Shown here one piece after another: positions 4,093 through 63,438 of a DNA stretch of 64,000 nucleotides. The translations under genes and the position numbers were made by a program. Every line of letters starts with the position of its first letter. Position 1 is the stretch's first letter. This stretch comes from Neolewinella aurantiaca (GTDB lineage: Bacteria > Bacteroidota > Bacteroidia > Chitinophagales > Saprospiraceae), in contig NZ_VOXD01000032.1 of NCBI RefSeq assembly GCF_008014675.1, positions 1 through 64,000 of the forward strand, read 5' to 3'. The notes under the pieces were generated by a model that saw only the letters and a program-made list of their open reading frames with translations, searched no databases and was not told where the DNA came from.

Positions 4093-4974
4093 ATGCGCAT
4101 TATACTTTGCTCTTTTATCCTTTTGCTTTGCACCTGCGTCCGCGCCCAGGAAACGCCCAACCAGACCATTAATTCGGTCTTTGCGTCCATGAAGGCCGGC
4201 GATACCACGGGAATGCGCGCCTACTTCCACCCGGATGCGACCCTGCACAGCGTGGTGACCAAGCCGACGGGCGAAACGGTGGTTTCTTCGGGCAGCATCG
4301 ACCGCTGGTTTGCGGGCATACAAAAAGCCGAAGCGGGCGACTGGGAAGAAGAGCTGAACTACACCGAACTGAACATCGACGGTCACCTGGCCAGCGCCTG
4401 GACGCCCTACGTGTTCAACTTCAAGGGTAAGCTGCACCACTGCGGCGTGAATGCGTTCCAACTGGTAAAAGACGGCGAAGCCGGCCAGTGGCGCATCCTC
4501 CACATCACCGATACCCGCCGCGACGCCGAAGGCGACTGCCAGCCGGTGAGCAAGCAAACACCCCGCGCGGCCATCGAAGCCCTGGCCACCGGCTGGCACA
4601 AAGCAGCCGCCGATGCCGACTCCACCGCTTTCTTCGACGCCCTGACCGACGACGCCATCTACATCGGCACCGATAAGGGCGAACACTGGACGAAGGCCGA
4701 GTTCCTCGGCTTCGCCGCGCCCTACTTTGCCCGCGGCAAAGCCTGGGATTTCCACGCCACCGAACGCCACATCTTCTACGACCCCAACCAGCAGGTCGCT
4801 TACTGGGACGAAGTGCTGGACACCTGGATGGGACCGTGCCGCGGCACCGCCGTCGTGAAACGCGCCGGCCCCGATGGTTGGAAGATCGCCCACTACACGC
4901 TGAGCATGACGATCCCGAACGAGAAGGTGCAGGAAGTGATTAAAGCTACCGGAGAAAAAACAAAAGAACGGTAA
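4093..4974 (+). CDS. Secreted protein with two NTF2-like (SnoaL) domains
   Basis: The 293-aa product starts with a signal peptide (MRIILCSFILLLCTCVRAQ, cleavage after RAQ). Two copies of an NTF2-like cone fold follow, at about residues 22-135 and 155-275. Each begins with an amphipathic helix ending in a D-T/S pattern (INSVFASMKAGDTTGMRAYFHPDATL and IEALATGWHKAAADADSTAFFDALTDDAIY) and contains the aromatic strand residues typical of SnoaL/DUF4440-like proteins. Many family members bind small ligands and are not enzymes, so no reaction is assigned. The stop is 13 bases before the next gene, suggesting co-transcription with the M20 peptidase. Signal-peptide codons 12-18 are made from one copy of the dispersed CGCAGGTGCA element. 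Confidence 0.75.
   Translation: MRIILCSFILLLCTCVRAQETPNQTINSVFASMKAGDTTGMRAYFHPDATLHSVVTKPTGETVVSSGSIDRWFAGIQKAEAGDWEEELNYTELNIDGHLASAWTPYVFNFKGKLHHCGVNAFQLVKDGEAGQWRILHITDTRRDAEGDCQPVSKQTPRAAIEALATGWHKAAADADSTAFFDALTDDAIYIGTDKGEHWTKAEFLGFAAPYFARGKAWDFHATERHIFYDPNQQVAYWDEVLDTWMGPCRGTAVVKRAGPDGWKIAHYTLSMTIPNEKVQEVIKATGEKTKER
4127..4147 (-). repeat. Dispersed GGCGC-NNN-CGCAGGTGCA element, copy 1
   Basis: Minus-strand copy with GGCGCGGACGCAGGTGCA core. It encodes part of the signal peptide (LCTCVRA) of the NTF2-like protein. Confidence 0.75.
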
Positions 4975-4987
4975 AACCAAACGGCTC

Positions 4988-6034
4988 ATGTACCTACAAC
5001 TTCTGAAAACACTGATCTCTACGCCTTCACTCTCCCGCAAGGAAGACCAGACGGCTGATATAATAGAGGCCTTCCTGCGCAACCGGGACCTGAAGCCCAA
5101 CCGCCACCTCAACAACGTGTGGTTGAAGTCGCGCAACTGGCAAGACGGCCAGCCCGTGATTTTGCTCAACAGCCACCACGACACCGTGAAGGCCGCCGCG
5201 GGGTACACCCGCGACCCGCACAAAGCAGAGGTAATCGACGGCAAACTGTACGGTTTGGGCAGCAACGATGCGGGCGGAGCGCTGGTGTCGCTCATTTCGG
5301 CTTTCGTTGAGCTGGAGAACGATCCCGATCTCGGGTGCAACCTCATTCTGGCCGCTACGGCCGAAGAAGAGATCAGCGGCCCCAACGGCATCGCCGCGCT
5401 GCTGCCGCTGCTGGGCCACATCGACGCGGGGATCGTGGGCGAGCCCACGCTGCTCGACCTCGCCGTCGCGGAGCGCGGCCTGGTGGTCATCGACGGCGAA
5501 GCGCAGGGTGTTTCCGGCCACGCCGCCCGCAAAGAGGGCGTCAATGCTCTGTACCTGGCACTGGATGACATCGCCGCCATCCGCGACCACGTATTTACCC
5601 GCCCCAGCGAGCTGCTGGGGCCTACTTCAGCCAACGTCACCGTACTGAACTCGGGGACCCAGCACAATGTGGTGCCCGACCGCGCTACCTTCCTGATCGA
5701 TCTGCGGGTCAACGAAGCGTACCGCAACGAAGAAGCCGTGGCCGAACTGCAGGCCGTTTGCCGGCACGCAGTGCTGACGCCCCGGAGTTTGCGCTTGCAG
5801 TCCAGCGGGATTGCGGCGGCGCACCCGCTGGTGCGCGCGGGTCTTGCCGTCCGGCCGGAGGCGAAGGCCTACGGCTCGCCTACCCTTTCCGATCAGGCGC
5901 TGATGCCTTTTCCTACCCTGAAACTCGGCCCGGGCGACAGTGCCCGCAGCCATACGGCGGATGAGTTCATCTACGTCGCGGAGGTGGAGGCAGGGCGGAA
6001 GATGTATGCTTCGTTGTTGCGAGAGGCTTGGTGA
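4988..6034 (+). CDS. M20-family peptidase, acetylornithine/acetylcitrulline deacetylase-like
   Basis: This 348-aa zinc hydrolase belongs to the ArgE/DapE group, which removes an N-acyl group from an amino acid. Metal and catalytic residues are visible in order: LLNSHHDTV (His-63/64, with the Asp), GLGSNDAGGALV (bridging Asp-94), TAEEEISG (catalytic Glu pair near 126-128), IVGEPT (Glu), and a final His in SHTADEF near the C-terminus. The dimerisation lid lies between about residues 160 and 270. In Bacteroidota, short ArgE-like enzymes such as this often act on N-acetylcitrulline or N-succinyl derivatives in arginine synthesis, but no other arg gene is nearby, so the substrate remains open. Follows the NTF2-like gene by 13 bases. 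Confidence 0.85.
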   Translation: MYLQLLKTLISTPSLSRKEDQTADIIEAFLRNRDLKPNRHLNNVWLKSRNWQDGQPVILLNSHHDTVKAAAGYTRDPHKAEVIDGKLYGLGSNDAGGALVSLISAFVELENDPDLGCNLILAATAEEEISGPNGIAALLPLLGHIDAGIVGEPTLLDLAVAERGLVVIDGEAQGVSGHAARKEGVNALYLALDDIAAIRDHVFTRPSELLGPTSANVTVLNSGTQHNVVPDRATFLIDLRVNEAYRNEEAVAELQAVCRHAVLTPRSLRLQSSGIAAAHPLVRAGLAVRPEAKAYGSPTLSDQALMPFPTLKLGPGDSARSHTADEFIYVAEVEAGRKMYASLLREAW

Positions 6035-6069
6035 GGCCATTCGCGGCTCAGCCGTTATTTTCGTGGTGA

Positions 6070-6414
6070 GTGTATTACAATACTACTCTACATTTTGATT
6101 TTCCCCCTCTCCCCCCGCCCTCTCCAACAAGCTTCGCCTAAGGCTCAGCGGAGAGGGAGCCAAAAATGTAGAGTAATGTGGTGTATTACAATACTACTCT
6201 ACATTTTGATTTTCCCCCCTCTCCCCCCGCCCTCTCCAACAAGCTTCGCCTAAGGCTCAGCGGAGAGGGAGCCAAAAATGTAGAGTAATGTGGTGTATTA
6301 CAATACTACTCTACATTTTGATTTTCCCCCTCTCCCCCCGCCCTCTCCAACAGGCTTCGCCTAAGGCTCAGCGGAGAGGGAGCCAAAATGTAGAGTAATG
6401 TGGTGTATTACAAT
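6070..6414. repeat. Three tandem 110-112 bp hairpin repeats
   Basis: Copies begin at 6070, 6181 and 6293, followed by a 12-base partial copy (6403-6414). Each copy opens with the palindrome GTATTACAATAC and folds on itself: TACTCTACATTTT at the left pairs with AAAATGTAGAGTA at the right, and the inner CCCTCTCC pairs with GGAGAGGG. The units differ by only a few bases (indels in the C and A runs), so the expansion is recent. No convincing gene is inside. Confidence 0.9.
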
Positions 6415-10324: not shown

Positions 10325-10343
10325 GGCGCGGCCGCAGGTGCAA
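10325..10343 (+). repeat. Dispersed GGCGC-NNN-CGCAGGTGCA element, copy 2
   Basis: Plus-strand copy GGCGCGGCCGCAGGTGCA, identical over 18 bases to copies at 20345, 53897 and 58575. It lies in the gap after the antiporter gene. Confidence 0.8.
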
Positions 10344-13370: not shown

Positions 13371-13390
13371 TTGCACCTGCGCCCGCGCCC
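13371..13390 (-). repeat. Dispersed GGCGC-NNN-CGCAGGTGCA element, copy 3
   Basis: Minus-strand copy with GGCGCGGGCGCAGGTGCA core, in the short gap between mscL and the membrane-protein gene. Confidence 0.75.
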
Positions 13391-14587: not shown

Positions 14588-16333
14588 CTAAAACTCTCCG
14601 CTTGTTTGGCGCTCAGTGTCAGCAATCAGCTCCGTTGCGGTCTTATACGCTGCCGCGAGGTCATCGGCTTTATCCTGGCCGGCATACAGGGCCATTTCGC
14701 AACGTTGGAGCAGCTGATCGTACCGGTCGGTGAGGGTCGCGCTTGCACCGGCGGAGGTCAGTTTTTCCCGGATGTTGCGCCGGGTGAGGTCCGCTACCGG
14801 CAGCTGGAACTTATCCCGTAGATACCCCAGTAGTGAGCCTTCGATCGCATCGTAGAAAGCCCGGGGCTCTACCTTGTCGAGGTGAATTTTGGCCGACTTC
14901 AAGCGTTCCTTCGCAGCCCGCGCTGCGCGTTCGCGGGCGAGTTCCACGGGGTCGCGGTTGTCCAGGTGGGAACGGTAGCGCTGCCACCCGATGAGCCCTC
15001 CGGCGAACAACAAAGGCAGCAGGAAAAGCCCCCAGTAAAGCGGCTGCCCGGGCAGGCTGCTACCGTAGGTTCTGCCCGCGGGCAGATCGGTTACGGGCAA
15101 CAGACTGAGCTTAGCCTCTTCGGTGGTGGTGGTATCGATTTCGTAGGTGGTGTTACCCGATCCCGCGGCGACCGTGATGTTGAAGTTTGTTGGTGCGTGC
15201 ACGACGTAGCGCGCACTGTCGACGTCGAAGTAATGCATTTCGGGGCGCAGGTTGTAGACGCCGGCCCGTTTGGGCACCACCTTGTATTCGAATATTTTAC
15301 GTCCCAGCATCCCCGTAGGACTGTCCAGGAATTCTTCGGAGATGATGTCCGGGTCGTAGATGTTCCAGTCTGCTTCACTCACCGGGGGGAAGGTTTCCAG
15401 CCTTTCTATATCGCCTTCACCGGTCACCGTAATCCTCAGGGTAAGGGCGTCGTCGGTCGTCATTCGGTCACGATCGGCCTGTACTTGCATGCGGTATTCA
15501 CCTACTCCGCCGCTGAAATTGTCTGGCCGCGGCTGCGGCAATTCGCTGACGTCTACGTATATCGTATCGGTGTTCAGCGGGATTTGTTCGGTAAATCTCC
15601 GGGAGTAACTGCTGTTGCCGCGGTACCGCAAAGCGCCCAGCACCATCCGGTACGGCGTGATGGTAATGCGCCCGCTCTTGGTGGGAAACAAAGCGATGCT
15701 CAGTAAGGTCCGCCGCTGGTATTCGCGCCCGTTCTCGATGATCGAACGGGGCCGGCCGTCGTATTGCCGGCGGGGCTGAGCGTAGAAACCATCGTAGCTG
15801 GGCTCCTGCACCAGGTTACGGGAAATGATGTTGGTGGTGGAGTAAAGGTTGAGGTTCAGGATGATCTGCTGGCCAACAAAAGCCGTGTCGGTGGTTAGCT
15901 CTGCGCGCAGAAAATCATCGGGCGTTCCCGCTGCTGCAGCGTCGTCTACTTCGAGTACATCTACCGATTTCGAATTGGTCCGGTACGTGCGCCCGCTGGC
16001 GCGGATGGAAGCGGGGCCAATGGCCAGCTTGCCCGTACGCTTAGGTTGCAATTGCCAGCTGTAGCTCAGGTAACTCGTCCCCACACCGTTGATGATCGAG
16101 GTTCCGAGCGAGCGCATGGGCCCGCGCAGGACAATGAAGTTGTCGAATTTCGGCGGGGTCAGCTCATTGCCCTGGGCGTTGTTGAGCGTGAGTTTGAACT
16201 CCAGCGTGCTGTTTTGCAGCATTTTCGTTTTGCTCACTTCCGCGACAAAAGTGATGTCCTGATGCTGAGCGGCCAGTTTCGGGGCGCCAACGCAGGTGCA
16301 GAGTACGATTAGAAGAGCAAAGAATGGTCGCAT
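14588..16333 (-). CDS. batD: BatD, Bacteroides aerotolerance protein
   Basis: The 581-aa protein is the last gene of the Bat operon. ATG at 16333 starts a signal peptide (MRPFFALLIVLCTCVGAPKLAAQ). The following 430 residues are beta-rich Ig-like repeats of the oxygen-tolerance family (DITFVAEVSKTKMLQNSTLEFKLTL; a second strand set at YRMQVQADRDRMTTDDALTLRITVTGEGDIE, which is the family hallmark), then one membrane helix (LYWGLFLLPLLFAGGLIGWQRYR) and a basic, helical cytoplasmic tail. BatD is thought to work in the periplasm with the VWA proteins BatA and BatB. The signal-peptide codons contain one copy of the dispersed element, and the region just before the ATG is an octamer repeat. Confidence 0.92.
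   Translation of the reverse strand: MRPFFALLIVLCTCVGAPKLAAQHQDITFVAEVSKTKMLQNSTLEFKLTLNNAQGNELTPPKFDNFIVLRGPMRSLGTSIINGVGTSYLSYSWQLQPKRTGKLAIGPASIRASGRTYRTNSKSVDVLEVDDAAAAGTPDDFLRAELTTDTAFVGQQIILNLNLYSTTNIISRNLVQEPSYDGFYAQPRRQYDGRPRSIIENGREYQRRTLLSIALFPTKSGRITITPYRMVLGALRYRGNSSYSRRFTEQIPLNTDTIYVDVSELPQPRPDNFSGGVGEYRMQVQADRDRMTTDDALTLRITVTGEGDIERLETFPPVSEADWNIYDPDIISEEFLDSPTGMLGRKIFEYKVVPKRAGVYNLRPEMHYFDVDSARYVVHAPTNFNITVAAGSGNTTYEIDTTTTEEAKLSLLPVTDLPAGRTYGSSLPGQPLYWGLFLLPLLFAGGLIGWQRYRSHLDNRDPVELARERAARAAKERLKSAKIHLDKVEPRAFYDAIEGSLLGYLRDKFQLPVADLTRRNIREKLTSAGASATLTDRYDQLLQRCEMALYAGQDKADDLAAAYKTATELIADTERQTSGEF
16283..16300 (+). repeat. Dispersed GGCGC-NNN-CGCAGGTGCA element, copy 4
   Basis: GGCGCCAACGCAGGTGCA, inside the signal-peptide codons of batD on the opposite strand. 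Confidence 0.75.
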
Positions 16334-16338
16334 CAAAG

Positions 16339-16390
16339 TTGGTTCGTTGGTTCGTTGGTTCGTTGGTTCGTTGGTTCGTTGGTTCGTTGG
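16339..16390. repeat. Octamer microsatellite (TTGGTTCG)x6.5
   Basis: Fifty-two bases of uninterrupted TTGGTTCG units start five bases upstream of the batD ATG. On the coding strand they read CGAACCAA. The units lie where ribosomes would bind the batD start, so copy-number change could alter expression. Confidence 0.9.
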
Positions 16391-20260: not shown

Positions 20261-21339
20261 TCTTCTTCGTTGTTGCCCTCTCCCCCGGTCCCTTTCCCCG
20301 GAAGAGGAGAGACATTGGAGGTATCAGAGTTGTTTGAATCATCAGGCGCGGCCGCAGGTGCAGGCGAGGTTGCCGGAGCAACAACCGCTACCATATTGGG
20401 TTCGGGTTCGGGAGCTGGCTCTGGCTCAATGCCGGTTTCTTTCACAAAGGCGCGTACCCGGTCCAGACTCTCTGCGTGCAATTCCACCGCGGGGCGTGCC
20501 TTGGCGAACTTCACCAGATCAGAAATCTGCAGCAGATTACTCAGTTCTTTGGCCCTGCCTTTATCGAAATCGTTGCGCTTGCTCAGTTTATCGGTGATCT
20601 GGCGGGTCGTCATCTCCAGGGCCTGTACGTTGAAACGGCCTTCGAGGTATTCACGGAGAATGTGCGTAAGCTCGGAGTAGTATTCCTTGGTTTGGCTTTG
20701 TTGCCAGAGCTCCTTACCCTCTAGTTCTTTCAGCGCATCCAGAGCGACGAGGTAAGCCGGTGGCGGCGGTGGCGGTGGTGGCGCATCCGCTTTGCGACGC
20801 TTCTGGATGGTGTAGAGGATGTACCCCAACCCGGCCACGATGAGCAACAGGAAGAGCCACCAGAAATCTAAAAGATTCAACGGCTCTTCAATGATAGGCT
20901 TGATGGGCATGATCTCTTCGTCGTCGCCTACGGGAAGCGCGTTTACCGTCAGGAGCAGATCGTTGGTGTAGGCAGTGTCCAGGCGTCCGTCGGCAGCTTT
21001 AAAGACGAAGGGCAGCGGCGGCACAGCGATGTAGCCGGTATCGAAACTCGTGATCAGGAAACGTTGCTGGAGCAAGAGCTCCGGATTTTCGGCAACTACA
21101 TTCAGCTCTTTGGCATCGATGGTTTCTAATCCCTCGAGTCCGTCAATGTAATCGGGAGCCATGCCGGTAACGTCCGTTCCCGGAGGTGCGGAAATATTAA
21201 CCGTAAGCCAGATCTGATCGCCCAACTCAATGGTTTTACGGCCCAGCTCTGCCCGGGCAAGGACTTGCTCATTGGTACTCTGCTGGGCGGCGAGGCCGGT
21301 TGCCAGGAAGATCAGTAGGAGTAATAGTCTTTGGGGCAC
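20257..21339 (-). CDS. Bat-operon leader protein: beta domain, one TM and DUF4381-like tail
   Basis: GTG at 21339 is chosen because a perfect promoter lies between it and the longer frame's start, and because it begins a signal peptide (PQRLLLLLIFLATGLAAQ). The mature N-terminal part resembles a BatD-type beta domain (ARAELGRKTIELGDQIWLTVNISAPPG). Then follow one membrane helix (LLDFWWLFLLLIVAGLGYILYT), a proline run of eight, and a helical region like DUF4381 (YYSELTHILREYLEGRF; MTTRQITDKLSKRN). The tail is Pro/Glu-rich and its last 30 codons derive from a dispersed-element copy and a GGAAGAGGAGAG-type hairpin repeat. It is the first gene of the operon; no moxR or DUF58 gene precedes it here. 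Confidence 0.75.
   Translation of the reverse strand: MPQRLLLLLIFLATGLAAQQSTNEQVLARAELGRKTIELGDQIWLTVNISAPPGTDVTGMAPDYIDGLEGLETIDAKELNVVAENPELLLQQRFLITSFDTGYIAVPPLPFVFKAADGRLDTAYTNDLLLTVNALPVGDDEEIMPIKPIIEEPLNLLDFWWLFLLLIVAGLGYILYTIQKRRKADAPPPPPPPPAYLVALDALKELEGKELWQQSQTKEYYSELTHILREYLEGRFNVQALEMTTRQITDKLSKRNDFDKGRAKELSNLLQISDLVKFAKARPAVELHAESLDRVRAFVKETGIEPEPAPEPEPNMVAVVAPATSPAPAAAPDDSNNSDTSNVSPLPGKGTGGEGNNEEE
20345..20362 (+). repeat. Dispersed GGCGC-NNN-CGCAGGTGCA element, copy 5
   Basis: GGCGCGGCCGCAGGTGCA, identical to copies 2, 11 and 12. Read on the minus strand it encodes PAPAAAP in the tail of the Bat leader protein. Confidence 0.8.
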
Positions 21340-26398: not shown

Positions 26399-27241
26399 TT
26401 ATCGTTCAGGCTCGTTATCCGGCGCACCTTCCAGGGGCGAGGCCGCAGGTGCACTGATGGTTGAAGAAGCAGTACGGTTAGCTGCCGCTTCTACCAGACA
26501 TTCTCCTTCGGGGCACCGGCAAGCCGGATTTGAGTCTTCGGTAGAAGCGAGTAAACTATTGGTCACCGCATTTAGTTGGCGCACCTTCGCCCGAAAATCT
26601 CCGGTTAGCCGGTCCCTGAACGTTTTCAGGTTGTCCAGCAGGTTACTGGTTTCGAGGTCTGGCAGCTCTGCTTCCAGAAACTGCCGGAACCGTTTGGCAA
26701 AGGTCGGGCTCTGTCCGTTGGTACTGATCGCGATCTTGAGCGGGCCACGGGTTACGATGCTACCGAGGTAGAAATCGCACAGGCTGGGAGTATCGGCAAT
26801 GTTCGTTAGCCGGCGGGCAGCTTTAGCCGAGGCGTGTACCGTCAGGTTCACTTCTTTGAGGTCGGTAGCGGCAATAACGAGGTCTGCGATTTCAACGTCT
26901 TTTGCTTTGAATCTCCGGGCGTACCAGATTACGGTACCGCCGGCGGCGGTGCGCCATTCCCCGGCTGGCGCTTCGTGGGTAAAGCGGGCAGCCGTGAGAA
27001 CATCGCCACCAAACCCTGCTTCGTCCAACGGGCTTTGCTCCTGCGTGCGCGCCTGCTTATCGTAGTTGTCCAGAAGACCCTTCAGTTCTTCTCCCATCCA
27101 TGGAGCGACAATGACCACCCGGGCGTTTGGGCTCGACTTGAGGATAAAGCTGAGTTTTTCTTCGCCCACCTCGCCCGCTCCGACCACCAGCAACTGGAGG
27201 CGGTCTAAACGAAAGAAAGCGGGGTATAGTGGATTGGTCAT
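26399..27241 (-). CDS. Precorrin-2 dehydrogenase / sirohydrochlorin ferrochelatase (Met8/CysG-N type)
   Basis: The 280-aa enzyme oxidises precorrin-2 with NAD+ and inserts Fe into sirohydrochlorin. NAD-binding GAGEVGEEKLSFIL is at residues 21-34, then VIVAP, ADLVIAATDLKEVNLTVHASAKA, LTNIADTPSLCDFYLGSIVTRGPLKIAISTNGQSPTFAKRFR (the catalytic Asp and the active-site signature), and a helical dimerisation domain. The last ~50 residues (after NAVTNS) are a low-complexity Ala/Ser/Pro/Glu tail with a dispersed-element copy in its codons. That tail is not part of the family. It makes siroheme cofactor for the sulfite reductase of the same operon. Confidence 0.9.
   Translation of the reverse strand: MTNPLYPAFFRLDRLQLLVVGAGEVGEEKLSFILKSSPNARVVIVAPWMGEELKGLLDNYDKQARTQEQSPLDEAGFGGDVLTAARFTHEAPAGEWRTAAGGTVIWYARRFKAKDVEIADLVIAATDLKEVNLTVHASAKAARRLTNIADTPSLCDFYLGSIVTRGPLKIAISTNGQSPTFAKRFRQFLEAELPDLETSNLLDNLKTFRDRLTGDFRAKVRQLNAVTNSLLASTEDSNPACRCPEGECLVEAAANRTASSTISAPAASPLEGAPDNEPER
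26436..26453 (+). repeat. Dispersed GGCGC-NNN-CGCAGGTGCA element, copy 6
   Basis: GGCGAGGCCGCAGGTGCA, one mismatch from the commonest form. It encodes part of the tail (SAPAASP) of the siroheme synthase. Confidence 0.75.
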
Positions 27242-30434: not shown

Positions 30435-30455
30435 GGCGCCGGCGCGCAGGTGCAA
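30435..30455 (+). repeat. Dispersed GGCGC-NNN-CGCAGGTGCA element, copy 7
   Basis: A slightly longer form, GGCGCCGGCGCGCAGGTGCAA, in the gap upstream of the membrane-protein gene. Apart from this and the sulfate-operon promoter the gap 30233-30710 holds nothing clear. Confidence 0.65.
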
Positions 30456-31899: not shown

Positions 31900-31924
31900 C
31901 AAGCCCTGGCCTCTTACCTCACGC

Positions 31925-31942
31925 TGCACCTGCGTCAGCGCC
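31925..31942 (-). repeat. Dispersed GGCGC-NNN-CGCAGGTGCA element, copy 8
   Basis: Complement reads GGCGCTGACGCAGGTGCA, identical to copy 9 at 38013, in an intergenic gap between convergent genes. Confidence 0.8.
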
Positions 31943-38012: not shown

Positions 38013-38031
38013 GGCGCTGACGCAGGTGCAA
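38013..38031 (+). repeat. Dispersed GGCGC-NNN-CGCAGGTGCA element, copy 9
   Basis: GGCGCTGACGCAGGTGCA, identical to copy 8. It lies in the gap upstream of rlpA; the remainder of the gap 37921-38324 shows only the promoter at 38292. Confidence 0.8.
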
Positions 38032-46105: not shown

Positions 46106-46259
46106 AGCTGCCCACCAGTGCCCCGTCAGACGACTTCCCGCAAGGCAGCTTTGTGTCACATTGGGTGTATTTTCTGACACCAATCGATTGCTAAGGCATT
46201 CTTGTGGCTTTAGTTCCCTGCCGTTTACTATCTTCCCCTTCTCATATTCAACAACGTTC

Positions 46260-47033
46260 ATGCGAAGCATTAATCTGATCTTTTCCGCGGCACTGCTTTT
46301 GCTGCTGTCCTGTGGAGACACTGCCACCTCTACTACCTCGCCAGAAACAGACCCCGCACCTGCTGCCGAGCCCGAAATCAAACCGATGACGGCAACCGGT
46401 GAATGGGTATCCCTCTTCAACGGAGAAGATTTCACCGGCTGGCACACCTACGGCAAAGAAAGCGTTGGTGCTGCATGGAAGATTGCCGACGGTAGCATCT
46501 ACCTCGACGTAGCCAACAAAGACGGCTGGCAAACCGAAGGCGGCGGCGATATTGTCACCGACAAATCTTACGCCAATTACGAGCTCGAACTCGAATGGAA
46601 AATCGGCAAAAACGGCAACAGCGGCATCATCTACAACATCGTTGAAACCGACGAATACGACTACCCCTGGCTCACCGGCCCCGAAATGCAGGTGCTCGAC
46701 AACGACGGCCACCCCGACGGAAAAATCAAGACCCACCGCGCCGGCGACCTTTATGACTTCATCTCCGTCGCCGAAGAAAACGTGAAGCCCGTTGGCGAGT
46801 GGAACAAAGTAAAACTCGTTGTTACCGACGGCAAGGTCGAGCACTGGCTCAACGGCAAAAAACAGGTTGAATACGCCAACAAAGGCCCAGAATGGGAGGC
46901 CATGATCGACAAGTCGAAGTTCAAAGATTACGACGCTTTCGGTATGTCGACCTCCGGCAAAATCTCTCTTCAGGATCACGGCGACGCCGTTTGGTTCCGG
47001 GGCATTCGCATTCGCGAGTTGGGATCAAAATAA
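46260..47033 (+). CDS. DUF1080 (3-keto-disaccharide hydrolase type) lipoprotein
   Basis: ATG at 46260 begins a lipoprotein signal (MRSINLIFSAALLLLLSCGD, lipobox LLSC). A Thr/Pro/Ala linker follows, with codons holding a relative of the dispersed element, then the DUF1080 concanavalin-like fold: WVSLFNGEDFTGWHTYGKESVGAAWKIADGSIYLD, YELELEWKIGKNGNSGIIYNIVETDEY, GPEMQVLDNDGHPDGKIKTHRAGDLYDF, EWNKVKLVVTDGKVEHWLNGKKQVEY, and FGMSTSGKISLQDHGDAVWFRGIRIREL. Such proteins hydrolyse 3-keto-glycosides or bind carbohydrate at the surface. It precedes an MFS gene by 43 bases. Confidence 0.9.
   Translation: MRSINLIFSAALLLLLSCGDTATSTTSPETDPAPAAEPEIKPMTATGEWVSLFNGEDFTGWHTYGKESVGAAWKIADGSIYLDVANKDGWQTEGGGDIVTDKSYANYELELEWKIGKNGNSGIIYNIVETDEYDYPWLTGPEMQVLDNDGHPDGKIKTHRAGDLYDFISVAEENVKPVGEWNKVKLVVTDGKVEHWLNGKKQVEYANKGPEWEAMIDKSKFKDYDAFGMSTSGKISLQDHGDAVWFRGIRIRELGSK
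46356..46373 (-). repeat. Variant of the dispersed element in a lipoprotein linker
   Basis: GCACCTGCTGCCGAGCCC; the same 18-mer recurs at 51409-51426 in the RNase R tail. It keeps GCAGGTGC and the GGGCTC-like end of the main element. Confidence 0.5.
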
Positions 47034-48389: not shown

Positions 48390-48408
48390 GGCGCGCACGC
48401 GGGTGCAA
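48390..48408 (+). repeat. Dispersed GGCGC-NNN-CGCAGGTGCA element, copy 10
   Basis: GGCGCGCACGCGGGTGCAA, one mismatch in CAGG, placed directly after the terminator. Confidence 0.65.
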
Positions 48409-51269: not shown

Positions 51270-53669
51270 CTATTTTTTCTTGCGCGGAGTACGTTGCTTA
51301 CGGGCGGGCTTAGGCGAACCTAACGAAGACTTCGCCTTTCCGCGCCGGGAAGAGGATGCCTTTGCGGTGTTACCCGTACGCCGGCCACTGCTCCTCCGAC
51401 CGGTTTTTGCACCTGCTGCCGAGCCCTTATCGTATTTCTTGCGCGATCCACCGGCTGCACCTTTGTCCGGGGCGGCCAAATCAGCTTCGGTTCCGTGCAC
51501 CTCGAGCACATCAATAAGTTCCATATCGATGCGACGGCGCTCCATGTCGACCTTCTTAACACGGATGCGGACGGAATCCCCCATCTTGAGGCGCTTACCG
51601 GTTTTGCGACCGGTGATGTAAAGTTTTCCGGAGCTGATATCGTACGGCTCGTCCATATCATCGTAGCTGATCATGCCCTCTACATAGTTGGCGGTCAGTT
51701 CTACAAACACACCAAAGTCGGCCATACCGTTGATGATACCGTCAAACTCTTCGCCGACGTTGTCGAGCATGAATTCGGTCTGTTTGTACTTGATGCTCTC
51801 CCGCTCGGCGGTGGTCGCTTTTTTCTCCTGCGCAGAGATGTGCTTACAGATTTCCTCCAGCTTTGTGGGGTTCATCTTATAAAGGCTTCCCTTTTCGAGG
51901 TTCTCGTCCAGGATGCGGTGCACCAATACGTCGGCGTAGCGGCGGATCGGGCTGGTGAAGTGCGTGTAGTTTTCGAAGCCGAGACCATAGTGACCGATAT
52001 TTTCGGTCGTGTAGATCGCCTTAGCCATCGTCCGTATTGCAATCGGCGAAAGCATCTTGACCATCGGGTCTTCGGCGGCTTTGGCCAGCAACTCGGTGTA
52101 ACTCTTAGCGATGGATTGCGGCGTACGAAGGTCCATTTTGTACCCCAGGGCTTCTGCGAATGCAGCCAGTTCGATCACTTTCTCCATGTTCGGCTCATCG
52201 TGGACACGGAAGACGAACGGAATTACTTCCTTGAGTCGTTCAGCTTTCTTGACCATAAAGGTGGCCACCTCTTTGTTGGCCAGCAGCATGAAGTCTTCGA
52301 TTAGCATGTTCGTATCGATGCGTTCCTTCACGTAAACCTCGAGCGGCGTGCCGTCTTCGTCCAGTTTGAAACGCACCTCGTTGGTAGCGAAGTCAATCGC
52401 ACCGTGCTTGAAGCGTTCCTTACGGAGCACTTTCGAAATCTTATCCAGCTGCAGCAATTCGTCGCAAAAGTCACCGCTTTTGGTATCCAGCACTTCCTGC
52501 GCTTCCTCGTAAGTGAAGCGTCGGTCGGAGTGAATAACCGTAGCTCCGAACCAGCGCTGGGTGATTTTGAAGGTCTTAGGGTGCATATTGAAGACGGCAG
52601 AGTAGCTCAGTTTGTCTTCGTGCGGGCGCAGAGAGCACAACTCGTTGGAGATGCGTTCGGGCAGCATCGGGCAGACGCGGTCTACGAGGTAGACAGAGGT
52701 TGTCCGTGCAGCAGCTTCCTTATCCAGGGCACTACCCGGGCGGACGTAGTGGCTCACATCGGCGATGTGAATGCCAACTTCTATTTCTCCGCTTTCGAGC
52801 GTCCGGATGGAAAGTGCGTCGTCAAAGTCCTTCGCCGTTAACGGATCGATGGTGAAGGTCGTGATGTCACGCATGTCCCGGCGGATGTTGATTTCCATCG
52901 GGCTGATTTCGCTGGGCAGCGCTTCGCTCTCGGCAATCACTTCTTCGGGGAAGGTGATTTGGAAGCCGTTGTTGATGAGGATCGACTGCATAGCGATTTC
53001 ACTGCTCCCTTCTTCGCCGAGCACGGCGGTGATTTTACCGCTGATCTGGCCAAAGCGATTGGGTTCCCAATCCAGGATCTTAACGACAACCTGGTCGTTG
53101 TTTTCACCGCCGATGAGTTCGGCGCGGTGTACAGCTACGGCGAGCGTTGCGTCGCCCGGTTGCTTCACCACCACTTCGGCGTACTTCTCGTGAATCATGA
53201 GTTTACCGACGAAGTGAGTTACACTACGTTCCAAAACTTCTACCACTTCGCCCTCGGGTTTCCTGCGACCGGTGGGCGTCCAGGTGCGGATTTTTACTTT
53301 GTCTCCGTCTTGAGCATTTCCCAGGCGGCGGTTGGTGACGAAAACGTCATCCTGATCGCCGTCGAGGACGATAAAGGCGGAACCGGAGCGGGTCATATCG
53401 ACCACGCCTTCCGCGTAAGTTTTGGAGGTTTTCTCCTGTATATTCTTGATTGCTTGAAATTTGTAGTCGCCGTTTTCGCGAACGAGTCCGTCGCTTACCA
53501 GCTTACTCAGAGCGGCCTTGACGCTATCCTGAGAATTTTTGATTTTCAGCTTCCTGATGAGCTGTTTCGGGTTAAATTGTTTGCGGGCGTTGCTCTTGAG
53601 TTCTTTCAGGAGGGCACTGCGTAAATCGCTGGCCTTGAGCTTACTGCCCTTAATCTTCTTTCTAGACAT
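51270..53669 (-). CDS. rnr: Ribonuclease R
   Basis: The 799-aa 3'-5' exoribonuclease degrades structured RNA. The ATG at 53669 starts MSRKKIKGSKLKASDLRSAL (N-terminal helix-turn-helix region); cold-shock-type OB folds follow, then the RNB catalytic core with DITTFTIDPLTAKDFDDALSIRTLESGEIEVGIHIADVSHYVRPGSALDKEAAARTTSVYLVDRVCPMLPERISNELCSLRPHEDKLSYSAVF (Asp ligands in DPLTAKDFDDA), the lane NIGHYGLGFENYTHFTSPIRRYADVLVHRIL, and an S1 domain (FDGIINGMADFGVFVEL). The tail from ~735 is Lys/Arg/Ser/Gly-rich and longer than in most homologues, with a variant of the dispersed element in its codons. Confidence 0.95.
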   Translation of the reverse strand: MSRKKIKGSKLKASDLRSALLKELKSNARKQFNPKQLIRKLKIKNSQDSVKAALSKLVSDGLVRENGDYKFQAIKNIQEKTSKTYAEGVVDMTRSGSAFIVLDGDQDDVFVTNRRLGNAQDGDKVKIRTWTPTGRRKPEGEVVEVLERSVTHFVGKLMIHEKYAEVVVKQPGDATLAVAVHRAELIGGENNDQVVVKILDWEPNRFGQISGKITAVLGEEGSSEIAMQSILINNGFQITFPEEVIAESEALPSEISPMEINIRRDMRDITTFTIDPLTAKDFDDALSIRTLESGEIEVGIHIADVSHYVRPGSALDKEAAARTTSVYLVDRVCPMLPERISNELCSLRPHEDKLSYSAVFNMHPKTFKITQRWFGATVIHSDRRFTYEEAQEVLDTKSGDFCDELLQLDKISKVLRKERFKHGAIDFATNEVRFKLDEDGTPLEVYVKERIDTNMLIEDFMLLANKEVATFMVKKAERLKEVIPFVFRVHDEPNMEKVIELAAFAEALGYKMDLRTPQSIAKSYTELLAKAAEDPMVKMLSPIAIRTMAKAIYTTENIGHYGLGFENYTHFTSPIRRYADVLVHRILDENLEKGSLYKMNPTKLEEICKHISAQEKKATTAERESIKYKQTEFMLDNVGEEFDGIINGMADFGVFVELTANYVEGMISYDDMDEPYDISSGKLYITGRKTGKRLKMGDSVRIRVKKVDMERRRIDMELIDVLEVHGTEADLAAPDKGAAGGSRKKYDKGSAAGAKTGRRSSGRRTGNTAKASSSRRGKAKSSLGSPKPARKQRTPRKKK
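51406..51426 (-). repeat. Variant of the dispersed element in the RNase R tail
   Basis: TTTGCACCTGCTGCCGAGCCC shares an 18-mer with the site in the DUF1080 lipoprotein at 46356-46373. Confidence 0.5.
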
Positions 53670-53896
53670 ATAAATTGCTGGGTGTGGGTGGCCATCTGCC
53701 ACCACCGCGTTCGTTATGTTGGACGCACAAATAATGAGCTTTACGCGTCATTTGCCCGAAATACAGGCGGCGCTGTCGCGGATTTTGGGTTTAGGGTTAT
53801 TCCCTTATTCGCACTCATAACACTTTCCAATCTTCAAAAGTTCTGTCTTACCCCGGGGCCAGCTTTATGGTTAGGTTAAGTTTATGGGTTTTCCTG

Positions 53897-53914
53897 GGCG
53901 CGGCCGCAGGTGCA
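53897..53914 (+). repeat. Dispersed GGCGC-NNN-CGCAGGTGCA element, copy 11
   Basis: GGCGCGGCCGCAGGTGCA, identical to copies 2, 5 and 12, in the 304-base gap before the reductase gene. No gene is visible in the rest of this gap (53670-53973). Confidence 0.8.
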
Positions 53915-56586: not shown

Positions 56587-58563
56587 ATGGACACAGCCAA
56601 CCCTTACCTCAACCCGGTAGAACTCTTTGACCTTTCCGAAAAGCCGGAACTTAAGCCTGCCGACCTGCGTAAAGCGAAAAAACGGTTTCTTACAGAACTC
56701 GAACTGGATGGTCGTGAAGACTTCGACTACCACGGCCGGCTCTTCACCCGCAATGATCTCGATCGCGTAAGCCAGGACATTGAAGACGAGGCAATGCTCG
56801 TTGCATACGTCACCGCAGCTAAAACAAAAGGGCTTTCGGCGTTTCTGGCCTCAGGCCGGACGGATCAGGAATTCGACAGCAACCAGCTTTTCAATCCTCG
56901 CCTCAAGCCTCTCCTCAGGTCTTATTTTGGTCCGGCCTTCAATCAGACCTTCGGGCGGGCGGTAGCCAATCAGGACCAACAGGCCGTCGACAAAATGAGA
57001 AACTGGAAGGCGGAGAGCGCAGGCATTTCCCCGTCGGTACTCTACCAGGACGCTTACCGTAACCTGGACTCGAAGATTGAAGTCCTTGCCGGTACGGTAG
57101 ATGCCTACCTCCGCGACCCTAAAAGCCCCGCCGCCCAAAACCTGCGGGGCATGAAAGCTTTCGACGATAACTTCCCGAAGGAACTCATTTCAGCCCTCCC
57201 ACCCTACTTTACCGATCTGACCGGCAAACTGGCCGACCGGCTCACGCCTTATATCATTCGCCTCAACAACGAACGGCAGAACCCCCGCATGGCCCTGGCC
57301 CTGACCAAATCCATCCTCCGGCTGGAAAACCTGGCCGACGATAAACGAGAACAACTGAAAAAGATCGGGCGGCAGTTACGTGATAATGTCAACACTGCTA
57401 ACCACAATCGTGAGGCACAGAGTAGTGAAGGAGGAATGGGCGCAGGCCGCATTGTATGGCTGATCATTGTTCTGGTAGTGATGCTGTTTCGGGTAGGCTC
57501 GTGTATCTCCAGCAACAGCCGTTCCAGCCGGAGCAATTACCGGACAAATTCTTACTACGCCGAGCAGCGCTATAAGCCTGTTTCGGCACTGACCTACAAA
57601 ATACGGTATGCTATCAACCTGAGGCAGGCGGTGCAGCGGGGCCTCTCGCCCACCGCTGTCACACCAGACAGCCGGGCCGATATCCCTTCCTTTCTGCTAA
57701 GCCCATTGTATCGCCCCGGAGCGGGCGTCCTGGAAGCCAACGATGTCCTGCGGGCACTTAATCAGGATACCGTCTATCACATCGAACGCTACGTCCTGAG
57801 CCGAAGGACCACTCCTTTCCAGGTCGATAAGGTCTTTCAGCAAACCATCAAGCGCCCTGTGGTTGCCAAAGACAAGGACACCAGCAGGCTCTACCTCGCG
57901 CTGGATGCTCTCAACAAAGAACTGACAGAAGAAGCGCGCATCCGCGAGGAGCGCCGCAAAGAAGCGGAAAAGAAATACACCGTCAGTAGTAAAAAATATC
58001 CGGGAGGAATTGTAGTCAAGGCCGATCGTGGCAACGGGCCGCCTTCGGCGGCCAGCAACGGAGTCCGCGAAGTAACCAGCTACGCAAAAGAGAAGAAAGA
58101 CCAACTCCTGGGGCCAAAGGCTAAAATGCCCGCCAACTACTACCTCTACCAGAAGCGGGGAGAAAAGAACGATGGCCGGCTGATGAAGATGAAAGCCGCC
58201 CCCGACGCTGCTGACGTTGGTCTCATTCTGGTTTGGCGAGACACGCTCGGCCTGCGGCAGGTCAGGATGCCCGGAGGGCTCACCGCCCCGTTCACCTTCG
58301 ACGTTGCCGTGGGGCAGGTAGACAAACTTCTTGAAGGCTACGTCGTCTACGGCAAGCTCTGGTCCGATACCGAAACCAGTCCCTTCGGAGGGCAGGGTTG
58401 GTACCGCGAAGTAATTTGCTATTGCGGACCCAACGATCACCTCGCGTTCATTAACGGTAAAAAGTCTTACCGCAAAAACATCTGGTTTCCCACCAAAAAG
58501 ATTGACACCAGTAAAAGCATGAGCCCCCAGGCCTGGTTGCGGGGGATAAAACGCTTGCGCTGA
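56587..58563 (+). CDS. Membrane-anchored protein of the Hsp70 module
   Basis: The 658-aa protein has a helical cytosolic domain (residues 1-280), one membrane helix at about 289-304 (IVWLIIVLVVMLFRVGSC), and a long C-terminal domain (305-658). The start PYLNPVELFDLSEKPELKP followed by ADLRKAKKRFLTELELDG resembles the first two helices of a J domain, but no HPD motif is present, so any co-chaperone role is speculative. The C-terminal part has a charged coiled segment (LTEEARIREERRKEAEKKYTV) and strand-rich endings. A GrpE-like and an Hsp70 gene follow on the same strand. I do not recognise the family. Confidence 0.65.
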   Translation: MDTANPYLNPVELFDLSEKPELKPADLRKAKKRFLTELELDGREDFDYHGRLFTRNDLDRVSQDIEDEAMLVAYVTAAKTKGLSAFLASGRTDQEFDSNQLFNPRLKPLLRSYFGPAFNQTFGRAVANQDQQAVDKMRNWKAESAGISPSVLYQDAYRNLDSKIEVLAGTVDAYLRDPKSPAAQNLRGMKAFDDNFPKELISALPPYFTDLTGKLADRLTPYIIRLNNERQNPRMALALTKSILRLENLADDKREQLKKIGRQLRDNVNTANHNREAQSSEGGMGAGRIVWLIIVLVVMLFRVGSCISSNSRSSRSNYRTNSYYAEQRYKPVSALTYKIRYAINLRQAVQRGLSPTAVTPDSRADIPSFLLSPLYRPGAGVLEANDVLRALNQDTVYHIERYVLSRRTTPFQVDKVFQQTIKRPVVAKDKDTSRLYLALDALNKELTEEARIREERRKEAEKKYTVSSKKYPGGIVVKADRGNGPPSAASNGVREVTSYAKEKKDQLLGPKAKMPANYYLYQKRGEKNDGRLMKMKAAPDAADVGLILVWRDTLGLRQVRMPGGLTAPFTFDVAVGQVDKLLEGYVVYGKLWSDTETSPFGGQGWYREVICYCGPNDHLAFINGKKSYRKNIWFPTKKIDTSKSMSPQAWLRGIKRLR

Positions 58564-58574: not shown

Positions 58575-58593
58575 GGCGCGGCCGCAGGTGCAA
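58575..58593 (+). repeat. Dispersed GGCGC-NNN-CGCAGGTGCA element, copy 12
   Basis: GGCGCGGCCGCAGGTGCAA in the 157-base gap between the membrane-anchored gene and the GrpE-like gene. Confidence 0.8.
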
Positions 58594-59143: not shown

Positions 59144-61681
59144 ATGACTATTAATCTCGGCATCGACCTCGGCACCACCAACTCCGCCATCGCTTACGCG
59201 AAGGAGGGGCGCGTTCAGATTTTCTCCAACCCCAAGGATATGGGCCGCCGGACGCTTCCCAGCGTAGTCGGTTTCAGAAAAGAACGGACCATCATAGGCA
59301 CAAAAGCCAGAGAACGGATGGAAAAAGACCCAAAGAACGTCTTTGGGGTTTTCAAGCGGAAAATGGGGACGAGTGAACGCTTTCAGGTGCCGGCCAGCGG
59401 CAGAGAGGAGAGTCCGATTACGTTGTCGAGTTACATTCTAAGGGAACTGCTGACTTTTTTGCCGGCCGACATTTCCACGCGGGCGGCGGTGATCACCATT
59501 CCCGCGAGTTTCGACACCGTTCAGAGCAAGGCTACAGAAGCCGCTGGCATTGCCGCCGGTTTCGAGCAGGTAAGCCTGCTGCAGGAGCCCATCGCGGCAA
59601 GCCTTGCCTTCGCCAACCAGGCAGAAAACGCCGTACCGGAAGACGGTAAATGGCTGGTTTACGACCTCGGCGGCGGTACCTTCGACGTTGCCCTTCTGTC
59701 CATCACCGACGGAGAAATGAAGGTCATCGACCACGTTGGCGACAACTTCCTCGGCGGAACAGACTTCGACCGCATGATCGTCGAAAAAATAATGGTTCCA
59801 AAGCTGGAAGAGGAGTACGAATTCACCAACCTGCTCGATGAGATGAAGAGCGCGAAGGGCAAATACAACGCCCAGTTTTATGTCTTGCGCCAACGGGCCG
59901 AAGAAATCAAGATTCAGCTATCCACTCAGGAGAGTGCAGAAATTCTGATCGATGGCTTCGACGATGAGGACGGCGAGGAGGTAGACCTGGAATTCACCTT
60001 CAGCCGTAATGATTTCAACAGGATTATCAGCCCCTACATCGAGGGGACGATGGACCTGATTGTCGATCTGTTGCAGCGCAACGGATTGACGGCTGAGACG
60101 CTGGAGTTCGTACTACTTGTAGGTGGCTCCACTTTTATTCCGCTGGTTCGGGAACGGTTGGAGGCCCGCATCGGCCGGCCGCTCAACGCCGATATTGACC
60201 CGACCACTTGTGTTGCCGAAGGGGCAGCGGCTTACGCTGCTACCCGTCCGCTGCGGCTGAAAGCGGAGGTTTCTGACAACCCTGCTACCAACGAACCGGC
60301 TGCGGCACCTGCGTCTGCGCCCAAACTGAAAATGGCCTACCCCCGCGCCAGCCGCGAAGAAGAAGAAACCCTTGTTGGTAAATCTGACGGCGACACCGAC
60401 GGCTGGCAGTACCGCATTCTGCGCCAGGACGGCGGTTTTGATTCCGGCCTTCGCCCCCTCAAAGGCCGTTTCTTCGAAGACCTCCCCCTGGTTTCCGGTG
60501 CATTCAACACCTTTACGCTGACCCTGACCAGCCCCGAAGGTAAAAGCCATGAGCACCCCGAGACCATCGGTATCAACGGCGGCTACGCCATCAGCGGCCA
60601 GCCACTGCCCGAAGACATCACCCTCGAGGTCGACGACCCCGAGCGCCCCGGCGGGTCGCGCTGCCTGGCGGTATTCAACAAAAACGCAGTCCTTCCCCTT
60701 CGCCGTACCATTACCCGGGCCCTCAACCGGCCGCTCCGAAAAGGCTACGAAGAAGACCAAATCAGGATCAACGTACTCGAAGGCCCTGCCGGCGCCAGCC
60801 CGGAAGCCAACAAAAAGATCGGCTTTCTAAGCATCACTGGTCGGCAGCTGAGCCGCGACGTCAGCAGCGGCACCGATGTGGAGATCAGCCTGCAAATGAA
60901 CGAAAACCGAGACCTGACCGTAATGGCTTACCTGGCCATGACCGGCCAGGAATTCGAAGAAACTTTCACCCCTACCGAACGCCACACACCACTGGATCTC
61001 CTCCGGCTCGAATACAACAACCTGGCCCGTCGCTGGGAAGATGAGCGTGCCGCAGCCGAACGCAACGAAGAGTACGAGCTGCTGGGCGTGATGAAAAGCC
61101 TGCAGGAAGAATTCGAAGACCTCGGTCGCCGCATCTCTGGCCTCAACGCCGATGATGCAACCGACGAACGCTACCAACTCGAAGACCGCCGCCGCACCAT
61201 CGTCCGGAAAATGGACAGCGCAATGGTGAACCGCGTTTTCCACGAAGCCTTGAAGAAATACGAAGAGGCTAAGCGAAAAACAATTCTGCTCGTAGAAACG
61301 GAAGGGACCAAAGCAGACCAAAAACAACTGACCGACTTGCGCCGACAGGAAACCGACATCCTTGCTGCCGGCATGACGGGGAAACTCGAAAGCCTTACCC
61401 GACAGATGAACGACCTGCACAGCCGTGTCTACGTGTCCTCTCCCGCTAATCTAAAAAATCACTTTAACCAGTTGCTGATGATGCGGGGGGTATACACCGA
61501 TGCCAGGATGGCGGAAACCTTCATCATGGCCGGGCAAACAGCTATCAGCCAAGAAAACTGGCCCGGGTTGCTGAACGTAATTCAGCAGTTACACGGTCTT
61601 TTGCCACGGAGTGTATTCCAAAATCCGGGCAATGATTCTACCGGCGGAGGAATTCCGGATCTGGGGAAAATCGGGTTTTAG
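59144..61681 (+). CDS. Divergent Hsp70 chaperone with an inserted domain
   Basis: The 845-aa protein has a clear ATPase domain at 1-375: INLGIDLGTTNSAIAYAKEG, RRTLPSVVGF, VITIPASFDTVQSKATEAAGIAAGFEQVSLLQEPIAASLAFA, WLVYDLGGGTFDVALLSI, GDNFLGGTDFDR, VLLVGGSTFIPLVRE. An Ala/Pro linker with a dispersed element follows. About 90 residues (DGWQYRILRQDGGFDSGLRPLKGRFF) not found in DnaK come before an SBD-beta-like part (VFNKNAVLPLRRTITRAL; IRINVLEGPAGASPEANKKIGFL; MNENRDLTVMAYLAMTGQEFEETF) and a long coiled C-terminus. It is about 200 residues longer than DnaK. It lies with a GrpE-like and a membrane protein gene, so it probably serves a special substrate. Confidence 0.85.
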   Translation: MTINLGIDLGTTNSAIAYAKEGRVQIFSNPKDMGRRTLPSVVGFRKERTIIGTKARERMEKDPKNVFGVFKRKMGTSERFQVPASGREESPITLSSYILRELLTFLPADISTRAAVITIPASFDTVQSKATEAAGIAAGFEQVSLLQEPIAASLAFANQAENAVPEDGKWLVYDLGGGTFDVALLSITDGEMKVIDHVGDNFLGGTDFDRMIVEKIMVPKLEEEYEFTNLLDEMKSAKGKYNAQFYVLRQRAEEIKIQLSTQESAEILIDGFDDEDGEEVDLEFTFSRNDFNRIISPYIEGTMDLIVDLLQRNGLTAETLEFVLLVGGSTFIPLVRERLEARIGRPLNADIDPTTCVAEGAAAYAATRPLRLKAEVSDNPATNEPAAAPASAPKLKMAYPRASREEEETLVGKSDGDTDGWQYRILRQDGGFDSGLRPLKGRFFEDLPLVSGAFNTFTLTLTSPEGKSHEHPETIGINGGYAISGQPLPEDITLEVDDPERPGGSRCLAVFNKNAVLPLRRTITRALNRPLRKGYEEDQIRINVLEGPAGASPEANKKIGFLSITGRQLSRDVSSGTDVEISLQMNENRDLTVMAYLAMTGQEFEETFTPTERHTPLDLLRLEYNNLARRWEDERAAAERNEEYELLGVMKSLQEEFEDLGRRISGLNADDATDERYQLEDRRRTIVRKMDSAMVNRVFHEALKKYEEAKRKTILLVETEGTKADQKQLTDLRRQETDILAAGMTGKLESLTRQMNDLHSRVYVSSPANLKNHFNQLLMMRGVYTDARMAETFIMAGQTAISQENWPGLLNVIQQLHGLLPRSVFQNPGNDSTGGGIPDLGKIGF
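60304..60322 (-). repeat. Dispersed element, copy 13 (variant) in the hsp70 linker
   Basis: Complement is GGGCGCAGACGCAGGTGCC, one change from the core. It encodes AAPASAP in the linker of the Hsp70-like protein. Confidence 0.6.
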
Positions 61682-63172: not shown

Positions 63173-63343
63173 AATATTGTTAGTTTGATGTAATCCGTGA
63201 GTCTGCCACTTATTACAATGTCGAAAGTAGTACTTTTGTGCCTTCCGTTTGGTTAAGGTAGGCTTAAAGCCGGGAAAAGAAGCGTTAAATCGCTTCCTGG
63301 CGACTGAAAAAGCAACTTTTCCGATCACCAGGCGGCTTTATTT

Positions 63344-63364
63344 GGCGCGAACGCAAGTTCGAAG
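63344..63364 (+). repeat. Degenerate relative of the dispersed element
   Basis: GGCGCGAACGCAAGTTCGAA keeps GGCGC-NNN-CGCA and diverges after that. It lies in the gap upstream of proS. Confidence 0.3.
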
Positions 63365-63420
63365 TTAAGACGTATGAAGCAGTGTTTGGTAACCTGCACT
63401 GCTCTTCACACTCTAAACCC

Positions 63421-63438
63421 TGCACCTGCGACAGCGCC
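63421..63438 (-). repeat. Dispersed GGCGC-NNN-CGCAGGTGCA element, copy 14
   Basis: Complement is GGCGCTGTCGCAGGTGCA. It lies 37 bases upstream of the proS ATG. The gap 63173-63474 has no gene. Confidence 0.8.

Follow-up and report, generated by a model that had tools for sequence, protein, structure and literature searches.

Why should one short word recur so often along a bacterial chromosome, on both strands and both within and between genes? The question is raised by a 64,000-nucleotide stretch of Neolewinella aurantiaca DNA (contig NZ_VOXD01000032.1, positions 1 to 64,000; "the window" refers to this whole stretch), in which a sequence-only reading had described a dispersed element in at least 14 copies, and had considered it to be either a nucleoid, methylation, or partition site or else a mobile repeat. 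Our analysis indicates that the element is real and larger than described, that it is spread throughout the genome and the genus, and that its copies avoid others of the same orientation. Its tail, its dialects among species, and this avoidance had escaped the earlier reading. We consider it to be a possible self tag resembling the DNA uptake sequences (DUS) of other bacteria.

The element is abundant, oriented, and non-clonal

When both strands of the window are scanned with the pattern GGCGCNNNCGCAGGTGCA at up to three mismatches, 25 matches are found, as compared to a mean of 2.49 and a maximum of 6 among 100 dinucleotide shuffles. Ten of these are exact and four have one mismatch, including a copy at 27036 (minus strand) that was absent from the earlier list, while several of the three two-mismatch and eight three-mismatch matches are probably due to chance. 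The sequence-only reading had suggested a genome-wide count against a null, and its result is clear: across the 6.0 Mb genome (104 contigs), there are 760 exact copies, as compared to 0 for the reversed control, and a looser version of the core yields 1,744 matches versus 113 for its reversed control. As had been claimed, both strands are used, and to an equal extent genome-wide (379 plus and 381 minus). Finer measurements were made in a 464-kb sample of this genome, consisting of 20 stretches together with the window. Here, sites with 0, 1, 2, and 3 mismatches number 63, 59, 22, and 30, versus means of 0, 0.05, 1.1, and 16.5 for 40 permuted patterns, and therefore most of the three-mismatch sites may have arisen by chance.

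The element is an oriented site of approximately 40 bases, which is composed of GGCG, four spacer bases that vary, CGC(A)GGTGC(A), and then a weak, purine-rich tail containing a G, GTT, and GAGCA. Its core has 15 fixed positions, numbered here from 0. Alignment of the 63 exact copies reveals slight conservation upstream (a weak T and a G), whereas the tail that follows the core exhibits a purine at +18, G at +20, A at +22/23, G at +24, TT at +26/27, and purines to approximately +36, with GAGCA often present at a shifting distance. The tails differ between copies and are not copies of one another, which indicates that the element is non-clonal. Among the 59 one-mismatch sites, the change occurs at position 11 in 23 cases, at position 4 in 17, at position 17 in 9, and elsewhere in 10; positions 2, 3, 8, 9, 10, 12, and 13 are never changed. 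Hence, the two kept arms and variable middle do behave as a recognition site, having 7 of the 15 fixed positions invariant and positions 4, 11, and 17 loose. One-mismatch sites also have a higher tail score than exact sites (3.3 vs. 2.8, against a background of 1.24), which is what a site would show if its total strength is what matters.

A second class of site, GGCTCGGCAGCAGGTGC, is found in 7 copies in the 464 kb, most of which have a similar tail, and the pair of related 18-mers reported earlier belongs to this class. The core contains a small inverted repeat, GCG...CGC, for which the counterpart in the second class is GCT...AGC. A hairpin might be formed by this repeat, but, the fixed variant GGCTCGGCAGCAGGTGC excepted, paired changes in its stem do not clearly exceed the expected number. 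An Rfam scan of the window returned one match only, a tRNA, and the element itself has no known structured-RNA match.

Distribution and dialects across the genus

The genus was sampled as 21 Neolewinella genomes, labelled from G000 (the N. aurantiaca genome itself), and the conservation in relatives anticipated by the sequence-only reading is evident among them. Exact-core counts range from 0 to 760. In a pattern scan of named genomes, the matches listed include many contigs of Neolewinella persica, N. agarilytica, N. lacunae, and N. antarctica as well as records labelled Lewinella, while single matches in other, mostly GC-rich genomes are taken for chance. The looser pattern GGCGN{4,6}CGCRGGW yields 680 to 1,866 matches in 20 of the 21 genomes versus 64 to 357 for the reversed control. 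The remaining genome, G011, belongs to the most divergent species and has 45 matches versus 36 for the control; it encodes instead another motif of similar layout, GGCT(NN or T)CAAAGTAGCA[AG]TG, with 52 seed words in 234 kb. Outside of the genus, an exact match was found in 1 of 19 genomes, as a single copy, and the family members G021 and G023 have no clear dispersed word in approximately 63 kb each.

Word enrichment in the low-count species uncovered several dialects of the element. G001 has an A-rich variant, GGCG[GA]CGGAGCGCAGG[TA] (43 seed-word instances in 400 kb, a few of which are not full motifs), and shares it with G007 (8 seed words in 100 kb). G004 and G017 have in common a GGCGGGGACGC[GA]GGAGCA-like variant (10 seed words in 160 kb of the former and 10 in 100 kb of the latter), while G016 and G013 have CGCGGGTGCC. 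The variants of G016, G013, G009, G015, and G020 rest on 95–100 kb each and on 10-mer counts of 5–10. In a midpoint-rooted tree of one antiporter protein from 20 of the 21 species (G006 was left out), G001/G007, G004/G017, and G016/G013 are sisters, and it is these same pairs that share dialects; G011 occupies a long branch and its place is unsure.

The word ATCCGTGGTGAA occurs 10 times in the 160-kb G004 sample versus 0.05 expected and is not among the dispersed words of that genome. At least 120 stretches of viral contigs have matches to the element, nearly all of them one or two and mostly with low tail scores. L423, an IMG/VR contig of 58% GC that was called viral, carries five looser tags in strictly alternating orientation, three of which have high tail scores, and this contig may be a Neolewinella relative or a provirus.

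Copies exclude neighbors of the same orientation

When pairs of sites less than 3 kb apart are sorted by orientation, those with the same orientation are heavily outnumbered by those with opposite orientations: 8:57 in G000, 6:43 in G002 (96 sites among the matches listed), 4:22 in G001 (69 sites, using a looser pattern), and 1:15 in G011. At 3–6 kb, G000 is at parity (61:61). In the same genome, 73 of 84 neighbors less than 4 kb apart have opposite orientations, and the opposite pairs match the random expectation of approximately 9.4 per 500 bp. Since opposite pairs are at their random level and same-orientation pairs are depleted, the two orientations evidently ignore each other, while each avoids itself. 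A comparable depletion is found in G019, where the 50 plus-strand sites among the matches listed leave 2 gaps of less than 2 kb versus 9.3 expected.

Control words rarely show this pattern. None of 831 control 7-mers with 100–170 copies in the G000 sample reach the fraction exhibited by the motif, nor do any of 1,658 control words in G011; for a strict G001 pattern (39 sites, 2:7), 4 of 1,818 control words do. Placement at gene borders can likewise be rejected as the cause. A model in which sites are reassigned to randomly chosen gene borders, each retaining its offset and sense, predicts ratios of 59:60 for G000 and 18:18 for G011, and the observed same-orientation counts were never reached in 1,000 trials for either genome. 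Nine further genomes, sampled at 75–160 kb each, yield a weaker pooled ratio of 30:57 (P 0.005). The rule is followed in G004 (2:9), G007 (1:4), and G017 (1:7), whereas the G012 sample has one pair only. The earlier claim of no fixed spacing is true, but incomplete, as the 132 looser sites of the 464-kb G000 sample are more evenly spaced than random (coefficient of variation 0.763 vs. 0.986, P 0.0005), in addition to the alternating orientation of neighbors.

Although the word of G011 has little sequence in common with those of the other species, it obeys the rule as well, suggesting a further dialect of one and the same system. More generally, same-orientation exclusion calls for a process acting on one side of the site over approximately 3 kb, for which a one-way import of DNA would suffice, as would Chi-like recognition at DNA ends. 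The exclusion is new relative to the reports on uptake sequences consulted here and, whatever the machine behind it, provides a quantitative footprint of a one-way process that can be searched for in any genome.

Genomic position and turnover

It had been claimed that most copies are intergenic, whereas the actual proportion is closer to half: 34 of the 63 exact sites in the 464 kb are located within open reading frames (ORFs) and 29 outside. As 87.8% of bases are in ORFs, the element is nevertheless enriched between genes. These ORFs were called by a simple longest-ORF caller and some genes are misplaced, such as 4054–5727, for which the Pfam matches are on the other strand. A promoter or terminator element was considered and rejected, since the 29 intergenic sites show no preference (17 tandem, 9 divergent, and 3 convergent, for available gaps of 27.7, 17.4, and 9.7 kb, respectively).

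There is a polarity at gene borders in G000, with cores facing the gene and tails facing the gap. Among looser sites located up to 150 bp from gene starts, 36 are antisense and 14 sense, while up to 150 bp from gene stops, 31 are sense and 11 antisense. The polarity is not seen in G001 (6:6 and 8:6) and is found at starts only in G011 (14 of 21 antisense). Read by eye, antisense tags encode signal peptides (e.g., LCTCxxAQ) in the genes at 4093–4974 and 14588–16336 and in several other G000 genes, and some signal peptides may thus be shaped by the tag.

Alignments with relatives bear upon how sites come and go. The site at 16283 is common to G008, G003, G006, and G002, is replaced in G005 and G018, and aligns within its gene to relatives without gaps. 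A one-mismatch site of G003 aligns gap-free to window sequence that lacks the core, and at the 10325 site, the tail persists in G008 together with a portion of the core. Gaps occur at 20 positions in the alignment for 13372 and at 9 in that for 20345. Relatives were fetched for sites up to 44 kb, and an alignment spanning to the window was obtained for 3 of 40 relatives' sites. With gap-free coding alignments at the few alignable sites, turnover by substitution is supported in genes, though it is not shown in general.

The copies of the window are collected in Table 1. The positions listed by the sequence-only reading all hold copies, with minus-strand coordinates being off by 1–2 bases. Its 18-base identities among 10325, 20345, 53897, and 58575 and between 31925 and 38013 both hold. 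The site at 30435 is likewise a copy, but it has a spacer of 6 rather than 4 bases (read by eye), and the degenerate copy at 63344 was recovered as a three-mismatch match. Two neighboring features deserve mention. A C-5 cytosine DNA methylase gene (1872–3155, minus strand) lies beside a DDE transposase gene (3227–4033, minus strand), both assigned by Pfam, and this pair adjoins the first tag. At 16320–16380, just upstream of the BatD-like gene, there is a short tandem run of GTTCGTTG units.

Table 1. Copies of the element in the 64,000-nucleotide window.
Feature	Coordinates	Strand	Context
Exact core	4129..4146	-	Antisense in signal peptide of SnoaL-like gene 4093-4974(+); tail towards lower coordinates
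Exact core	10325..10342	+	Intergenic; degraded version with tail in G008
Exact core	13372..13389	-	Intergenic, upstream of MscL gene
Exact core	16283..16300	+	Antisense at N-terminus of BatD-like gene 14588-16336(-)
Exact core	20345..20362	+	Antisense near C-terminal end of ORF 20257-21423(-)
One-mismatch core	26436..26453	+	Antisense near C-terminal end of siroheme-synthase-like gene 26399-27241(-)
One-mismatch core	27036..27053	-	Sense inside siroheme-synthase-like gene 26399-27241(-); gap-free alignment to two G008 loci
6-base-spacer copy GGCG-N6-CGCAGGTGCA	30435..30454	+	Intergenic
Exact core	31925..31942	-	Within ORF 31363-31977(-), a doubtful gene lacking a Pfam match
Exact core	38013..38030	+	Antisense in ORF 36349-38280(-), lytic transglycolase/SPOR
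Second-class copy GGCTCGGCAGCAGGTGC	46355..46372	-	Antisense in gene 46161-47033(+)
One-mismatch core	48390..48407	+	Intergenic
Second-class copy GGCTCGGCAGCAGGTGC	51408..51425	-	Sense near C-terminal end of RNase-R-like gene 51270-53705(-)
Exact core	53897..53914	+	Intergenic
Exact core	58575..58592	+	Intergenic, directly after ORF 56587-58563(+)
One-mismatch core	60304..60321	-	Antisense in Hsp70-like gene 59144-61681(+)
Degenerate copy, 3 mismatches	63344..63361	+	Intergenic, facing 63421-
Exact core	63421..63438	-	Intergenic, convergent with 63344+

A candidate self tag for DNA uptake

Based upon these features, we favor the view that the element may be a self tag that resembles DNA uptake sequences and is maintained through uptake that is biased and one-directional, and we estimate its probability at approximately one half. 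Firstly, DUS are the best match for a tag that is long, oriented, non-clonal, divided into dialects, and present hundreds of times. Secondly, biased uptake is the known process that is able to rewrite such a set of sites within one genus. We infer a receptor, an uptake process with a direction, and a drive that maintains the copies. A surface receptor would bind the tag on DNA released by kin, import of this tagged DNA would be preferential and would proceed from the site in one direction, and recombination into the chromosome would follow by ComEC/RecA-type steps. Tagged alleles would enter more often than untagged ones, such that copies would accumulate and be kept by molecular drive, while drift of the receptor would draw all of the copies together into species dialects. 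Over the length imported, nothing would be gained from another copy with the same orientation, which would leave same-orientation copies approximately 3 kb or more apart and the two orientations placed independently of each other. In its most specific form, which we propose tentatively and at less than even odds, this would amount to a directional self-DNA code, in which a pilus-free Bacteroidota uptake machine binds the ~40-base tag and imports one side only over approximately 3 kb or more. The chromosome would then carry two interleaved and independent tag lattices, one per orientation, and the dialects would serve as mating barriers.

ComEC is encoded by all 21 members of the genus and helix-hairpin-helix proteins by 20, the missing genome being 55% complete. 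Riemerella anatipestifer transformation is described as proceeding with ComEC, DprA, ComF, and RecA together with four proteins unlike known transformation parts, and other Bacteroidota are described as transforming without type IV pili (PMC8459023). After comEC, at the locus L066:11840-18192 of the N. aurantiaca genome, lies the gene for a secreted protein of 1,326 aa that combines a carboxypeptidase-regulatory-like domain (PF13620) with a type IX secretion system sorting tail (Por_Secre_tail). This protein was considered as a receptor and rejected, as it has no counterpart beside comEC in G001.

Several observations weigh against the uptake interpretation. ComEC and helix-hairpin-helix proteins occur widely and carry no evidential weight. 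Matches to prepilins (PF07963) number 0 of 21 in the genus, as opposed to 8 of 14 control genomes, and full-length PilB/PilT ATPases (PF00437) are similarly found in 0 of 21, with only partial matches at E 1.3e-5 or weaker, as compared to E near 1e-123 in two members of the order. A receptor of the known type is accordingly unlikely, and none was found when the type IV pilus families were searched in the 21 genomes. Of the 21 genomes, only G011 has DUF5689, which occurs as a domain in one of the Riemerella transformation proteins. In the literature searched, we found no uptake or competence for Neolewinella and, although this is not proof of absence, no accepted uptake word for the Bacteroidota and no repeat described for the genus. 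The orientation rule is also not a known trait of uptake sequences, given that orientation is reported to have no effect upon Haemophilus influenzae uptake (PMC1939737). Furthermore, the rule itself is uneven among the smaller samples, being weak in G015 (6:11), G016 (6:10), G009 (5:7), and G013 (4:6) and absent in G020 (5:2), while even spacing is significant only in G000 (borderline in G001, P 0.053; none in G011, P 0.42). Since neither of the two type IV pilus families searched was found, we do not class the tag as a member of the known uptake sequences, even if it would work like one.

Alternative explanations

Among the alternatives, a Chi-like signal comes closest, although we regard it as unlikely. 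In this case, a DNA-end-processing enzyme would read the site from one direction and switch to recombination, and the two orientations would be spaced separately. Chi sites are oriented and act on one side over kilobases, which would account for both the range of the exclusion and the independence of the two orientations. However, known Chi sites are short, whereas the tag has 15 fixed bases and a tail in addition. There is also no genome-wide strand excess, and, although the origin and terminus were not located, the local alternation of neighbors differs from the co-orientation with replication expected of such a signal. If an essential enzyme reads the site, its turnover into dialects within one genus is difficult to account for.

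It is rather unlikely that the element is a chromosome-organising site, at which a nucleoid, condensin-loading, or occlusion protein would bind oriented sites throughout the chromosome. The many copies on both strands, their presence in and between genes, and the even spacing in G000 are all compatible with such a role, but it does not by itself predict exclusion of the same and not the opposite orientation, nor would it predict hundreds of sites changing dialect together.

A mobile repeat was among the earlier suggestions, and one resembling REP or MITE elements and dispersed by a transposase now appears improbable. REP elements with RAYT transposases do contain a small inverted repeat and number hundreds of copies that are specific to a species, and the tag is similarly genus-specific, with exact counts differing greatly between species, enrichment between genes, convergent close pairs, and inverted repeats in both of its classes. 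Nevertheless, REP elements are almost wholly outside genes, whereas about half of the tags are in ORFs as called here, their tails are not copies of each other, and exclusion by orientation is not explained by insertion. The sites at 16283 and 27036 and one G003 site also align gap-free to relatives, which speaks against insertion at these few alignable coding sites, though 13372 and 20345 have gapped alignments. Equally improbable are packaging start sites of a gene-transfer-agent-like particle that would package chromosomal DNA in one direction; such particles would supply one-way action over a few kilobases, but we know of no gene transfer agents whose packaging begins at defined sites throughout the genome. 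Lastly, a replication-polar or partition site, the latter also having been suggested earlier, fits poorly with equal strand counts and locally alternating neighbors and was rejected.

Comparison with known systems

Uptake sequences have been described for the Neisseriaceae and Pasteurellaceae. If the uptake interpretation is correct, the dialect-forming tag of a Bacteroidota genus in which no type IV pilus can be recognised would point to a separate origin of species-specific DNA exchange, involving a putative receptor. It would also have practical value, as placing the tag on donor DNA would provide a genetic handle on these environmental (marine) bacteria.

The similarities to DUS and to the uptake signal sequences (USS) of the Pasteurellaceae lie in the strong genome-wide over-representation of one word and in its equal use of both strands, in genes as well as between them. 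The Neisseriaceae DUS, which are read by the minor pilin ComP, are described as very abundant short words with dialects consistent with phylogeny (PMC3630211), much like those of the sister species here. Unlike the tag, with its 15 fixed bases plus a tail, DUS are 10–12 bases in length; the tag is also less dense, shows exclusion by orientation, and is found in a genus lacking matches to prepilins or full-length PilB/PilT. With respect to USS, the orientation-blind uptake reported for H. influenzae differs from the exclusion below 3 kb exhibited by the tag, although the latter is a genomic pattern rather than an uptake assay. Close USS pairs overlap and can form terminators (PMC7811141), whereas convergent pairs of the tag are mostly ~100–400 bp apart. 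For Riemerella (Flavobacteriaceae), the candidate words of R. columbina are low-complexity A/T only, their function being left open by the authors (PMC7965970), and the tag differs from these; DUF5689, as noted, occurs in a single Neolewinella genome. The parallels are that Riemerella belongs to the same phylum, relies upon ComEC-based, pilus-free transformation, and, in the case of R. columbina, prefers its own DNA (PMC7965970).

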